Positions 56,328-60,779 of a DNA stretch of 64,000 nucleotides are shown piece after piece; within the stretch, counting starts at the first letter, position 1, and each line of letters begins with the position of its first letter. The stretch is from Blautia sp. (GTDB lineage: Bacteria > Bacillota > Clostridia > Lachnospirales > Lachnospiraceae). The notes below the pieces were generated by a model. That model did no database searches, had not been told where the DNA came from, and saw only the letters and a list, made by a program, of their open reading frames with translations. The translations under genes were made by a program, and so were the position numbers. The stretch spans positions 1-64,000 of the forward strand of contig JAETNR010000003.1 of assembly GCA_021772055.1 (NCBI GenBank). The letters are read 5' to 3'.

Positions 56328-57656
56328 ATGAAAAAAAAGGTTGCACTTCACAATTTGGGCTGCAAGGTCAATGCTTATGAGACAGAGGCCATGCAGCAGC
56401 TTCTGGAGCAGGCAGGCTATGAGATCGTGCCTTTTGAGCCGGGAGCAGATATTTATGTGATCAATACCTGTACTGTAACAAATATTGCGGACAGGAAGTC
56501 TCGCCAGATGCTTCATAAGGCAAAAAAAATGAATCCGGATGCCATTGTGGTGGCTGCAGGATGCTATGCCCAGACAGATACCGGGAAGCTTCTGGAAGAT
56601 AGAACTGTGGACTTAATCCTTGGAAATAATCAGAAAAAGAATATTGTGGAAGCTCTTTTGGAGTATGAGGAGAAGCATCAGAAGGCCTCTCATGTGCTCA
56701 TGATTAATCAGACAAAGAACTATGAGGAGCTTTCCATTGCCTATACAGCTGAGCACGTAAGGGCATATCTGAAGGTACAGGACGGCTGCAACCAGTTCTG
56801 CACCTACTGTATTATTCCCTATGCCAGAGGCAGGGTGCGCAGCCGCTCTCTGGAGAGCCTTCTAAAGGAGGTACATGCTCTTTCAAAACGGGGTTACAAG
56901 GAAGTGGTGCTTACAGGAATTCATTTAAGTTCCTATGGTGTGGACTTCCCCGAAGAAGAGAGAACGGATCTTCTGGCTCTCATTCGGGCAGTGCACAAGG
57001 TAGATGGAATTGAACGAATCCGCCTTGGCTCCCTGGAACCGGGAATTGTTACCGAGGAGTTTGTAAAGGGAATCGCAGAGCTTCCGAAAATGTGCCCGCA
57101 TTTTCATCTGTCTCTGCAAAGTGGCTGCGACGAAACATTAAAGCGCATGAACCGCAGGTATGATTCCGAAGAATATGCCATGCGCTGTGCACTTCTTCGG
57201 AAATATTTTGAAAACCCGGCAATTACGACGGATGTGATCGTAGGCTTCCCTATGGAAACGGAGGAGGAGTTTTGGAAATCCCATGATTTTGTAGAGAGTA
57301 TTCACTTTTATGAAACACATATTTTTAAATATTCCAGACGTCAGGGAACCAAAGCTGCAGTGATGGAAGGACAGCTTACAGAAAAGGTGAAAGCTGAGAG
57401 AAGTGATATCATGCTTGCCCTCCATGAGCAAAGGGCAAAGGAATACGAGCGGTCTTTTCTCGGAAAAAATCTGGAAGTCCTTTTGGAGGAAGAAATCCTG
57501 ATCGAGGGGCGCGCTTATTATGTGGGCCACAGCAAGGAATATGTAAAGGCAGCCGTGGAGAAACAGGAAGGCCTGGATGTGAACGATATTGTATCTTTAA
57601 GGGCAGAAAAATTCCTGGAAAAGCACCTGCTTTTGGGAACAAAAATGAATTTTTAA
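56328..57656 (+). CDS. mtaB: tRNA t6A37 methylthiotransferase MtaB
   Basis: 442-residue radical SAM methylthiotransferase that makes ms2t6A at position 37 of tRNAs. N-terminal MTTase domain NLGCKVNAYETEAM with VINTCTVTNIADRKSR; radical SAM motif CNQFCTYCIIPYARG; C-terminal TRAM-like domain. Weak ribosome site (GAGGTAAAA). Monocistronic, before the ireB operon. Confidence 0.94.
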   Translation: MKKKVALHNLGCKVNAYETEAMQQLLEQAGYEIVPFEPGADIYVINTCTVTNIADRKSRQMLHKAKKMNPDAIVVAAGCYAQTDTGKLLEDRTVDLILGNNQKKNIVEALLEYEEKHQKASHVLMINQTKNYEELSIAYTAEHVRAYLKVQDGCNQFCTYCIIPYARGRVRSRSLESLLKEVHALSKRGYKEVVLTGIHLSSYGVDFPEEERTDLLALIRAVHKVDGIERIRLGSLEPGIVTEEFVKGIAELPKMCPHFHLSLQSGCDETLKRMNRRYDSEEYAMRCALLRKYFENPAITTDVIVGFPMETEEEFWKSHDFVESIHFYETHIFKYSRRQGTKAAVMEGQLTEKVKAERSDIMLALHEQRAKEYERSFLGKNLEVLLEEEILIEGRAYYVGHSKEYVKAAVEKQEGLDVNDIVSLRAEKFLEKHLLLGTKMNF

Positions 57657-57726
57657 GTTTTCATTGTATTTTACATAAAATTATATTAAAATGAATAAGA
57701 AATACAGAGTAAGGACGTGAGAGAAA

Positions 57727-57999
57727 ATGGCAGAGAATAATCTGGGAAATACCCAATATTTCAGGACAAAACCTGATGTGGAACTGGAAGTGAAGGAAGT
57801 TCTGGATCTGGTATACACTGCAATGGATGAAAAGGGCTACAATCCGGTGAATCAGATTGTAGGATATATCATGTCAGGAGACCCCACTTATATTACCAGT
57901 CATAAGGGTGCCAGAAGCATGATCATGAAAGTAGAAAGAGATGAATTAGTGGAAGAGCTTCTTAATGAGTATATTAAGAACAGATCCTGGGAAGACTGA
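57727..57999 (+). CDS. IreB family regulatory phosphoprotein (UPF0297)
   Basis: 90-residue IreB-like protein ([38 protein letters not shown]). In Enterococcus IreB is a target of the Ser/Thr kinase IreK and affects cell-envelope stress resistance. First gene of the conserved ireB-ruvX-DUF1292 cluster; its stop overlaps the ruvX start (TGATG). Confidence 0.93.
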
Positions 58000-58451
58000 T
58001 GATGAGAATTCTGGGATTGGATTATGGCTCAAAGACGGTTGGTGTGGCTGTCAGTGATCCTCTGGGACTGACAGCGCAGGCTGTGGAAACCATTTGGAGA
58101 AAACAGGAGAATAAGCTTCGCCGGACATTGGCCCGGATCTGCGAACTGATAGAAGAATATCAGGCAGAGCTGCTTGTTGTGGGATATCCGAAGAATATGA
58201 ACAATACGATTGGAGAGCGGGCGCAGAAATCTCTGGAGTTTAAGGAAATGCTGGAAAAAAAGACCGGCCTGCCTGTTGTGATGTGGGACGAACGCCTGAC
58301 CAGTGTAGAAGCAAACCGTACTTTGATGGAGGCCGGAGTGCGCCGGGAGAACCGGAAGCAGTACATGGACGAATTAGCGGCTGTTTTTATTTTGCAGGGA
58401 TATCTGGATTCCCTGGCTATGAGTAAGGATGAACATGATGGAGAAAATTAA
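57999..58451 (+). CDS. ruvX: Holliday junction resolvase-like protein RuvX
   Basis: 150-residue YqgF/RuvX nuclease with RNase H fold ([50 protein letters not shown]). Acts in 16S rRNA 5' maturation or in junction resolution. Coupled to ireB by overlap; its last codons overlap the next gene. Confidence 0.93.
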
Positions 58452-58695
58452 ATTTCAGTCTGAGGACGGCACAGTTGAGGAATTTTATATAGAGGAACAG
58501 ACCAGAATCGGCGGAATTGCTTATCTTTTAGTGTCCGATTCCATGGAGGAAGAAGCATCCGCCTATATTTTAAAAGATGTATCAGAGGATACCTGTCAGG
58601 AAGCCTGTTATGTGATGGTGGAAGATGAGGAAGAGCTTGAGGCTGTTTTTAAAGTGTTTGAACAGATGATGGAAGATGTAAATTTAAAAATGTAA
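58438..58695 (+). CDS. DUF1292 protein (UPF0473, YrzB-like)
   Basis: 85-residue very acidic protein of the DUF1292 family ([31 protein letters not shown]). It always travels with ireB and ruvX; function unknown. Start chosen at 58438 because AAGGA (58425-58429) is spaced 8 bases away; 58429 and 58435 are alternatives. It overlaps the ruvX end. Confidence 0.88.
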
Positions 58696-58706
58696 CAATA
58701 AATCAG

Positions 58707-58936
58707 GCAATTTATTCTATTGCCGGTAAGCCTCCGGCATAAGGCCTGGGAGGATGTAAGGGCATAACGAATCTGAAAATTATGATCCTGCGAAGCAGGA
58801 AACTTTTTCGTGCCCAAAATATGAGAGATCGGTGATACCTGGAGACGTGAGAATGTATCAGGTATGGTAATGAGAAACGGATTCCAAATCCGGTAAAGGA
58901 ATAAATTGCACAGCAAATTAATGTGGAGGTGCAATT
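58707..58936 (+). ncRNA. Structured leader of RNase J gene, candidate switch
   Basis: GCAATTTATTC (58707-58717) pairs perfectly (11 bp) with GAATAAATTGC (58899-58909), closing a multi-branch element. Inner hairpins: TGCCGG/CCGGCA (58721-58739), GGGCA/TGCCC (58760-58815) capped by CCTGC-GAA-GCAGG, ATACCTG/CAGGTAT (58835-58865) and CGGATT/AATCCG (58878-58892). The 3' arm of the closing helix can instead form AATTGCAC/GTGCAATT (58904-58911 with 58929-58936), which places the ribosome site GGAGG in a loop right against the TTG start. The two forms exclude each other, as in a riboswitch or autoregulated leader. I do not recognise a known RNA class. Confidence 0.6.
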
Positions 58937-58937
58937 A

Positions 58938-60779
58938 TTGAAGAACGACAACAATGAGACTTACAGAAAGAGCAGCAGCCAGAATGCTGCAGATAAAAAA
59001 CAGGTAACAAGACAGAAAAACAGCAGGTATAAACAGCCATCCAGAAATAACAGATATCCGGAAAAAAGCAGCAAACCTATTTTTAAGGCTCCGGTAAAGA
59101 CCGCTTCCCGCAGGGGACGCAAAAACAGCGAATCCAGACTGAAGATTATTCCTCTTGGCGGCCTGGAGCAGATTGGAATGAATATCACTGCATTTGAATA
59201 TGAGGAGAGCATCGTTGTGGTAGACTGCGGGCTTTCTTTTCCGGAAGATGATATGCTGGGAATCGACCTGGTAATTCCGGATGTGACTTATTTAAAAGAA
59301 AATATTTCCAAAGTCAAGGGATTTGTGATCACCCACGGACATGAGGACCATATCGGTGCTCTGCCCTATATACTGAAAGAGGTTAATGTCCCCATTTATT
59401 CTACAAAGCTGACCATTGGGCTGATTGCCAATAAGCTGAAAGAGCATAATCTTGTGCGCACAACGAAGATGAAAGAAGTAAAGCACGGACAGGTGATCAA
59501 CCTGGGTGATTTTTCCATTGAATTTATTAAAACCAACCATAGTATTCAGGATGCATCCGCACTGGCAATTTATTCGCCTGCGGGAATCGTAGTGCATACC
59601 GGTGATTTTAAGGTGGATTATACTCCTGTTTTTGGAGATGCCATAGATCTGCAGCGTTTTGCTGAAATCGGAAAAAAAGGTGTTCTGGCGCTGATGTGCG
59701 ACAGTACCAATGCAGAGCGCCCCGGGTTTACCATGTCAGAACGTACTGTGGGACATGTATTTGACAATTTGTTTAATGAGCACAAGAGTTCCAGAATCAT
59801 CATTGCCACGTTTGCATCGAATGTGGACCGTGTACAGCAGATCATTAATACTGCGTACCGCTTTGGACGGAAGGTGGCAGTGGAAGGCCGCAGCATGGTA
59901 AATGTAATTACCACAGCTTCCGAGCTTGGCTATCTTCGCATTCCGGATAATACGCTGATCGAGATTGACCAGGTGAAGAATTATCCGGATGAACAGGTGG
60001 TTCTGATCACCACAGGCAGCCAGGGGGAATCCATGGCAGCTCTGTCCCGTATGGCAGCCAACATTCATAAGAAAATTACGATCAAGCCAAATGATACGAT
60101 CATTTTCAGTTCCAACCCCATTCCGGGCAATGAGAAAGCGGTTTCCAAGGTAATTAACGAGCTTTCCATGAAAGGGGCAAAGGTGATCTTCCAGGATGCC
60201 CATGTTTCCGGACATGCCTGTCAGGAGGAGATTAAGCTTATTTATTCTCTGGTGCGCCCGAAATATGCTATTCCGGTGCATGGGGAATACCGCCACCTTA
60301 CTGCACAGAAGCATGTGGTAGAGGATTTGGGAATCCCCAAAGAAAATATTTTTATTCTTTCTTCAGGAAATGTTCTGGAGCTGGATGAGCAGGGAGCGGA
60401 AGTGACAGGAACCGTTCATACAGGCGCGATCCTGGTAGACGGCCTTGGCGTTGGCGATGTGGGAAATATTGTGCTTCGTGACCGTCAGCATCTGGCAGAG
60501 GACGGTATTATGATCGTTGTTATGACGCTGGAACGCCACAGCAATGTAGTGCTTGCAGGACCGGATATTGTATCCAGAGGATTTGTTTATGTAAGAGAAT
60601 CCGAAGATCTGATGGATCAGGCAAGAGAAGTGGTAGAAGAGGCACTGGATGCCTGCCTTTCCAGAAATATTACGGATTGGGGCAGAATTAAAACCATGGT
60701 AAAGGATGCGTTGAGCGATTTCCTCTGGAAGCGGACCAAGAGAAGCCCCATGATCCTTCCGATTATTATGGAGGCTTAA
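58938..60779 (+). CDS. rnj: Ribonuclease J
   Basis: 613-residue metallo-beta-lactamase nuclease with 5'-3' exo- and endonuclease activity, central to mRNA decay and rRNA maturation. Metal motif THGHEDHIGALPY, then HTGDFKVDYTP, DSTNAERPG and the beta-CASP part (SNPIPGNEKAV; IPVHGEYRHL). About 70 N-terminal residues are basic and low-complexity (KNDNNETYRKSSSQNAADKK onward), an unusual extension that may bind RNA. The TTG at 58938 follows GGAGG by 8 bases; an in-frame GTG at 58923 overlaps that site. YlbF follows 5 bases later. Confidence 0.95.
   Translation: MKNDNNETYRKSSSQNAADKKQVTRQKNSRYKQPSRNNRYPEKSSKPIFKAPVKTASRRGRKNSESRLKIIPLGGLEQIGMNITAFEYEESIVVVDCGLSFPEDDMLGIDLVIPDVTYLKENISKVKGFVITHGHEDHIGALPYILKEVNVPIYSTKLTIGLIANKLKEHNLVRTTKMKEVKHGQVINLGDFSIEFIKTNHSIQDASALAIYSPAGIVVHTGDFKVDYTPVFGDAIDLQRFAEIGKKGVLALMCDSTNAERPGFTMSERTVGHVFDNLFNEHKSSRIIIATFASNVDRVQQIINTAYRFGRKVAVEGRSMVNVITTASELGYLRIPDNTLIEIDQVKNYPDEQVVLITTGSQGESMAALSRMAANIHKKITIKPNDTIIFSSNPIPGNEKAVSKVINELSMKGAKVIFQDAHVSGHACQEEIKLIYSLVRPKYAIPVHGEYRHLTAQKHVVEDLGIPKENIFILSSGNVLELDEQGAEVTGTVHTGAILVDGLGVGDVGNIVLRDRQHLAEDGIMIVVMTLERHSNVVLAGPDIVSRGFVYVRESEDLMDQAREVVEEALDACLSRNITDWGRIKTMVKDALSDFLWKRTKRSPMILPIIMEA

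Follow-up and report, generated by a model that had tools for sequence, protein, structure and literature searches.

The closest described systems are ribonuclease genes that are controlled through their own messages. PNPase of Escherichia coli controls pnp through a double-stranded leader that RNase III cleaves (PMC3997798, PMC5371410), and RNase E binds a stem-loop in the 5' UTR of rne in a negative feedback (described in part of PMC3997798). In Bacillus subtilis, the ribonuclease encoded by rny controls its own mRNA, with RNase J1 entering after cuts in the 5' UTR, as set out in a portion of PMC10303841. For RNase J itself, negative feedback via the 5' UTR has been suggested for rnj of Helicobacter pylori and linked to RhpA and the degradosome (sections of PMC5874925). 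RNase J is central to RNA decay in many bacteria, and control of its level seems to have been little studied; a phrase search of the open-licence PMC literature on RNase J autoregulation matched only the H. pylori paper (PMC5874925).

Here we analyse the leader of the RNase J gene, rnjA, in a stretch of 64,000 nucleotides, referred to as the window, and in its Blautia-like relatives, which are gut bacteria. One predicted fold of this leader hides and the other exposes the translation start of RNase J, by which the cell may set RNase J levels, and a conserved leader with defined, testable competing folds is a concrete object for the question of how that level is controlled. No description of this leader was seen in the open-licence PMC literature among the matches listed, and a term search of the main texts of PMC8040213, which reports thousands of human-microbiome candidates, PMC11109978, PMC8632094 and PMC2864571 found neither 'RNase J' nor 'Blautia'; an unnamed earlier listing of the leader, for example in supplements, is possible.

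The rnjA leader and its closing helix

The window contig belongs to a Blautia-like genome, and among its closest named RNase J relatives many come from Blautia. The gene order is ireB-like, ruvX, DUF1292, leader and rnjA, with the leader running from the DUF1292 stop (58695) to the rnjA TTG start (58938), and the rnjA product matches Pfam RNase_J_b_CASP and RNase_J_C (Table 1). It is the one RNase J match in this genome, in which genes for RNase III, RNase Y and PNPase were also found. The RNase J core is preceded by a basic, low-complexity N-terminal extension (58938-59135, about 66 aa here) that is found genus-wide, and the frame ahead of the core is much shorter at most loci from other Lachnospiraceae genera. 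Two genomes of the genus, G052 (L156) and G018, carry a second, more distant RNase J-like gene, with 67% and 55% identity. The sole sigma70-like promoter match within 57600-59100 is weak, one being found against 3.4 expected by chance, and would yield an ireB-ruvX-DUF1292-rnjA transcript. A promoter within the leader itself was rejected, since none was found in the window and the two among 14 leaders lie at different places (overlapping the 5' arm in L101, and in L144). A leader peptide was likewise rejected, with no separate plus-strand ORF of at least 20 aa between DUF1292 and rnjA.

Table 1. Coordinates of the features of the rnjA leader and its surroundings in the window.
Feature	Position	Strand	Remarks
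Sigma70-like promoter match	57658..57687	+	sole match within 57600-59100; weak
DUF1292 gene	58429..58695	+	upstream of leader; Pfam PF06949
P1 5' arm (putative decoy strand), GCAATTTATTCT	58707..58718	+	partner 58898-58909
P2 5' strand, TTGCCGG	58720..58726	+	partner 58890-58896; letters vary among relatives, pairing largely kept
P3 5' strand (possible), GGGC..ACGAA	58760..58771	+	complementary to 58807-58815; absent from window MFE fold
Small hairpin TCCTGC-GAA-GCAGGA, then AACTTTTTCG	58786..58800	+	weak terminator-like; from scan
P3 3' strand (possible), TTCGTGCCC	58807..58815	+	partner of P3 5' strand
P4 stem-loop, ATACCTG-GAGACGTGAGAATGTAT-CAGGTAT	58835..58865	+	recurrent loop motif ACGTGA
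P2 3' strand, CCGGTAA	58890..58896	+	partner of P2 5' strand
P1 3' arm, GGAATAAATTGC	58898..58909	+	partner of P1 5' arm
Anti-ribosome-site strand, AATTGCAC	58904..58911	+	common to P1; partner 58929-58936; kept in 13/14 members, window included
Shine-Dalgarno of rnjA, GGAGG	58925..58929	+	8 nt before TTG
Start-site partner strand, GTGCAATT	58929..58936	+	partner of 58904-58911; covers last G of Shine-Dalgarno and most of spacer
rnjA (RNase J)	58938..60779	+	TTG start, 613 aa; NCBIfam TIGR00649 644 bits (cut-off 400)

An earlier note on this DNA had proposed that the leader is closed by a perfect 11-bp helix, and this helix is indeed present, GCAATTTATTC (58707-58717) being perfectly complementary to GAATAAATTGC (58899-58909). 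It continues with a U-G pair (58718/58898), one A/A mismatch and a further 7 bp (58720-58726 with 58890-58896), giving 12 + 7 pairs in P1 and P2, a long near-continuous helix as in leaders of the pnp/rnc type that are processed by RNase III. The leader (58698-58911) folds with an MFE of -71.3 (z -5.63) and the leader with its flanks (58690-58970) with a z of -3.74, in each case with equally stable shuffles in 0/200. The 3' arm pairs with the upstream leader at -25.1 kcal/mol, against -9.9 +/- 1.8 for shuffles, which were as good in 0/500.

RNase J was found in 64/64 genomes of the window's genus, and the genus counts are based on the 63 with a readable rnjA upstream region; they leave out L158 (at a contig edge, in G010), L156 (the second rnjA-like gene of G052), L001-L013 and L094 (the same places as other loci) and L014-L093 (partly the same genomes, partly other genera). 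By the rule used, no in-frame Shine-Dalgarno was present in 5/63, and in 35/63 the leader was shorter than 95 nt or such a site was missing. The closing helix occurs in 15/63: fourteen leaders carry the ends GCAATTTATTCT ... AATAAATTGCAC ... GGAGGTGCAAT, original or slightly altered, and L150 keeps the pairing with different letters. In the other 48 no P1 was detected; many of these have almost no leader. Measured from a point 4 nt ahead of the 5' arm to one about 10 nt beyond the start codon, the fourteen members span 192-445 nt. Compared with the window, the 12-nt 5' arm is identical in 8/13 relatives and has one to three letters changed in the other 5; this near identity is not just recent ancestry, because the 4-fold degenerate rnjA sites of the window and the other 13 are only 34-59% identical. 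Mapped onto an rnjA tree of 55 rows, of which 14 have the leader (L150 is absent from the tree) and in which several deep forks are weakly supported, the leader needs 5 changes. Since both early branching lineages and the window's clade contain it, the leader may go back to the ancestor of the genus and have been lost several times.

Some leaders in which no P1 was detected have hairpins of their own. Eight (L114, L116, L118, L121, L122, L126, L127 and L129) share a short hairpin GGAATGCC..GGTATTCC, followed by a GAGTTTTCGTGC-like sequence, before the ribosome site, and the start-site hairpin of L137, AGUCUAUGUA/UACAUAGAUU, has 10 bp and an unrelated sequence.

Conservation and covariation of P1+P2 are supported by arm swaps, shuffles, a sequence-blind search and a covariation score. 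In 14/14 nothing else in the upstream leader pairs as well with the 3' arm as the 5' arm does, and among 500 shuffles none was as good in 11 members, one in two members and 10 in L098. Matched arms pair at -21.3 kcal/mol and arms swapped between species at -16.8 kcal/mol, an average loss of about 4.5 kcal/mol (0 of 20,000 permutations; P2 alone 0, P1 alone 52). In the P1+P2 alignment, whose structure was derived from the same 14 sequences, 90.3% of cells are paired, against 37-52% with the partners slid, and the covariation score is 0.281 against 0.178 when shuffled (0/500). P1 displays wobble changes and one A-U to U-A exchange, and P2 displays repeated double changes. The sequence-blind helix search over the 28 leaders that were long enough recovered 13/14 at p <= 0.01, with L098 failing (p 0.42), and added L150 (arms GUGUAAUUGAUAUUUGA/UCAGAUAUUAUUUACAC, 16/17 paired, 0/300 shuffles). 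Other closing helices, in L113 (p 0.007), L153 (0.02) and L129 (0.05), were not counted as P1, and L154, with a P1-like relic visible by eye and not significant (0.13), was counted as without P1. When duplexes were surveyed against block shuffles with a longer 3' window of 45 nt, 7/14 stood at <= 1/100 and the worst at 85/100 (L145); as long bulges let other pairings win, this survey gave way to the sequence-blind search, which is gapless.

Start-site pairing and the balance of the two folds

The overlap described in the earlier note was found at the coordinates it gave: the 3' arm of the closing helix shares letters with AATTGCAC, which can also pair with GTGCAATT in the start region of rnjA. 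The latter strand (58929-58936) starts at the last G of GGAGG and stops short of the TTG (58938-58940); a GTG at 58923 is in the same frame as this TTG, but ahead of the Shine-Dalgarno site. With AATTGC common to both, the two pairings are mutually exclusive. P1 is well conserved outside AATTGC too, and dual pairing accounts for this only partly. Likeness of the 5' arm letters to the ribosome site is, by itself, mostly not significant, and such mimicry was rejected; the best match overlaps the 5' arm in 10/15 (in L131 only at the edge), with p <= 0.05 for a match overlapping the arm only in L131 and L150.

Taken alone, the 8-bp start-site hairpin of the window is weaker evidence (5/500 shuffles; p = 0.03 in a separate test), and its support comes from the relatives. 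The alternative helix is kept in 13/14 of the members recognised by sequence and, with other letters, in L150, but the 14-member alignment contains zero double compensatory changes, because the letters of the hairpin hardly vary. The case for it is therefore built on co-occurrence with P1, on position and on L150, in which ACUGCA pairs with UGCAGU, and UCAGAU, part of the P1 strand of L150, with the start codon region. L145 is without the hairpin, which misses p <= 0.05 in L144 (0.264) and L098 (0.056), and in L097, L098, L099, L100, L102 and L146 three extra pairs reach the start codon. A hairpin at p <= 0.05 was found in 12/15 leaders with P1, against 4/43 without P1 and 5/96 control ORFs taken from the window and L095-L123 (Fisher 7e-7 and 6e-10, respectively); dropping three near-duplicate P1 members gave 2e-5, near-identical members without P1 (e.g. 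L117, L123-L125) being left unmerged in these tests. Counted over the members without the 14-member leader, it is 5/44, L150 among the five. The closing helix, the overlap and the competing pairing in the window are not chance, and the comparison of relatives shows two predicted, exclusive pairings of one strand that are conserved together: 13/14 members and L150 have a strand common to two exclusive helices, one of them over the start region, as in alternative pairings that sequester a ribosome-binding site.

This co-occurrence bears on a simpler explanation, in which P1/P2 governs mRNA stability, as an RNase III site or as a protective clamp, without any switching, the complementarity to the start site being a by-product. 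With about 20 nearly continuous pairs around a variable loop, the helix does resemble processing stems, the stem is better conserved than the interior and the genome has an RNase III gene, but a processing stem leaves unexplained why start-site hairpin and P1 occur together (12/15 vs 4/43), and we consider this explanation unlikely.

Partition functions were then used to describe the balance between the two folds. Within the whole leader, P1 has a probability of 0.98 or more in 10/14 and the start-site hairpin <= 0.03 in 11/14, whereas removal of the first 30 nt, comprising the 5' arm and P2 strand, raises the start-site hairpin to >= 0.78 in 12/14, the exceptions being L144 (0.45) and L145 (no hairpin). 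Similarly, the hairpin is present in the MFE fold of 58727-58975 of the window, from which the 5' arm is omitted. The earlier suggestion that closing the long helix would free translation is thus borne out by the predictions for most members, but L146, where the start-site hairpin is favoured (0.88) despite the presence of the 5' arm, disagrees, and L098 and L105 give a mixed picture. On average the unpaired probability of the site drops only slightly, from 0.45 to 0.35, so that a modest effect is predicted.

The variable interior and the search beyond the genus

It is unusual for a closing helix to be conserved while, among species of a single genus, the domain inside it changes almost completely. 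The stretch between the P1 arms measures about 125 to 375 nt in the fourteen members and about 60 in L150, with no alignable core. The four further hairpins that had been described inside the helix are broadly right for the MFE fold of the window, and most of this interior is not conserved between species. Terminator-like sites occur in 6/14 leaders against 0.66 expected, one of them in the window, at differing positions. They would fit a region between DUF1292 and rnjA that attenuates or terminates transcription and in which P1 has no importance for translation; given weak tails, varying places, none found in 8/14 and no promoter match at a common place in the leaders, this seems very improbable indeed.

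Within the interior only P4, a covarying stem-loop, was found to recur. A 7-bp stem around an ACGUGA or ACGGA loop passes a strict test in 9/14 leaders, with differing stem letters, and a P4-like stem is also present in L141, outside the fourteen. In this test 4-25/300 shuffles pass per leader and the motif was chosen after seeing the data; in the swap test the stems were hand-chosen, so that the shuffle count alone was used. The loop motif GGARACGUGAR (58835-58865) looks like a candidate binding or tertiary-contact site. One could accordingly imagine a metabolite riboswitch, with the interior as an aptamer and a ligand that, by binding to it, closes P1 and opens translation. A closing helix adjoining an expression platform is a typical architecture, and P4, whose stem letters change around a recurrent ACGUGA-like loop, would suit such a riboswitch as well. 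We regard it as quite improbable because no constant aptamer was seen: an interior of about 60 to 375 nt with no alignable core has none of the conserved core of an aptamer, nothing constant was seen that would be large enough for a usual one, P4 is missing in 5/14 by the strict test, no Rfam family matched, the leader turned up in a single genus and RNase J does not point to any metabolite.

The earlier note had recognised no known riboswitch motif, and the Rfam searches agree with it. A scan of the window with Rfam 15 at gathering thresholds gave no match to the leader, its one hit being rRNA at 1-88, where the 3' end of a 23S rRNA gene lies; a permissive scan of 58600-59100 gave two miRNA models far below threshold (E 3.9 and 9.6), and the leaders of 13 relatives gave 0 matches. 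A known riboswitch or other Rfam RNA was rejected on these scans.

Beyond the genus, a model of the 3' module (R1) was searched against 397 genomes of 334 genera, with strict filters and genus-trained, such that diverged leaders could be missed. Eleven genomes, including the window's own, matched at E <= 0.01; among the other 10 loci, five (L160, L162-L165) contain the RNase J core and show no P1 in their predicted folds, and the remaining five showed no match to the RNase J core. The genus-trained sequence model showed no P1 leader in other genera of the family. A motif scan of 80 RNase J loci found the two ends, in order and ahead of the start, in L014 and L015 alone, with the same end distances as L099 and L105. 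By eye, L164 and L165, from other genera, have a Fur-like frame between DUF1292 and rnjA that is absent in the window.

A candidate switch and its relation to known ribonuclease leaders

We consider it probable, on the comparison of related leaders, that the element acts in cis as a translational switch in which the 5' arm is a decoy competing with the start-site pairing. Such a switch would stand open by default and close upon removal or occupation of the 5' arm; from the pairings we infer the effect on translation, the default open state and the input. The 5' arm would compete for the strand that otherwise covers the ribosome-binding region. Because it is transcribed first, P1 formation is likely the default, leaving the start site freer, and its removal or occupation would let the 3' strand fold onto the start region, so that translation drops.

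As the likeliest input we tentatively propose ribonuclease processing, through which RNase J could sense itself: a cut in or near the leader, with exonucleolytic loss of the decoy, would close the start at high nuclease capacity, broadly like the control of pnp by PNPase in E. coli. Alternatively, a protein or RNA might bind the P4 stem-loop. We prefer a nuclease-linked feedback because the closing helix is conserved while the enclosed domain is not, and because the gene encodes a nuclease and several ribonuclease genes are described as self-regulating (parts of PMC3997798 and, for H. pylori rnj, PMC5874925). The sharper proposal, that the switch is read by an exonuclease, with excess RNase activity consuming the decoy that keeps the rnjA start open, is rather doubtful. 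If true, the message of a 5'-3' exonuclease would gauge exonuclease capacity via loss of its own decoy, and the domain between the arms would be free to diverge, since mainly the closing helix would matter.

Leader autocontrol of E. coli pnp involves the removal of one strand of the leader. Like the pnp leader, the rnjA leader has a long helix in a ribonuclease mRNA, and the removal of one strand would change expression; unlike it, the freed strand here can pair with the start region, and no sequence relation was found (no Rfam match). With E. coli rne it shares a structured leader on a ribonuclease gene and, under the input proposed here, negative feedback, whereas the enzyme and the phylum differ and the rnjA leader matches no Rfam family. 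B. subtilis rny differs in that control there operates largely by cleavage in the first 100 nt of the ORF and not by alternative pairing, according to the account in part of PMC10303841. H. pylori rnj is, like rnjA, an RNase J gene, in a distant organism and, in the sections describing it, with a link to RhpA and the degradosome.
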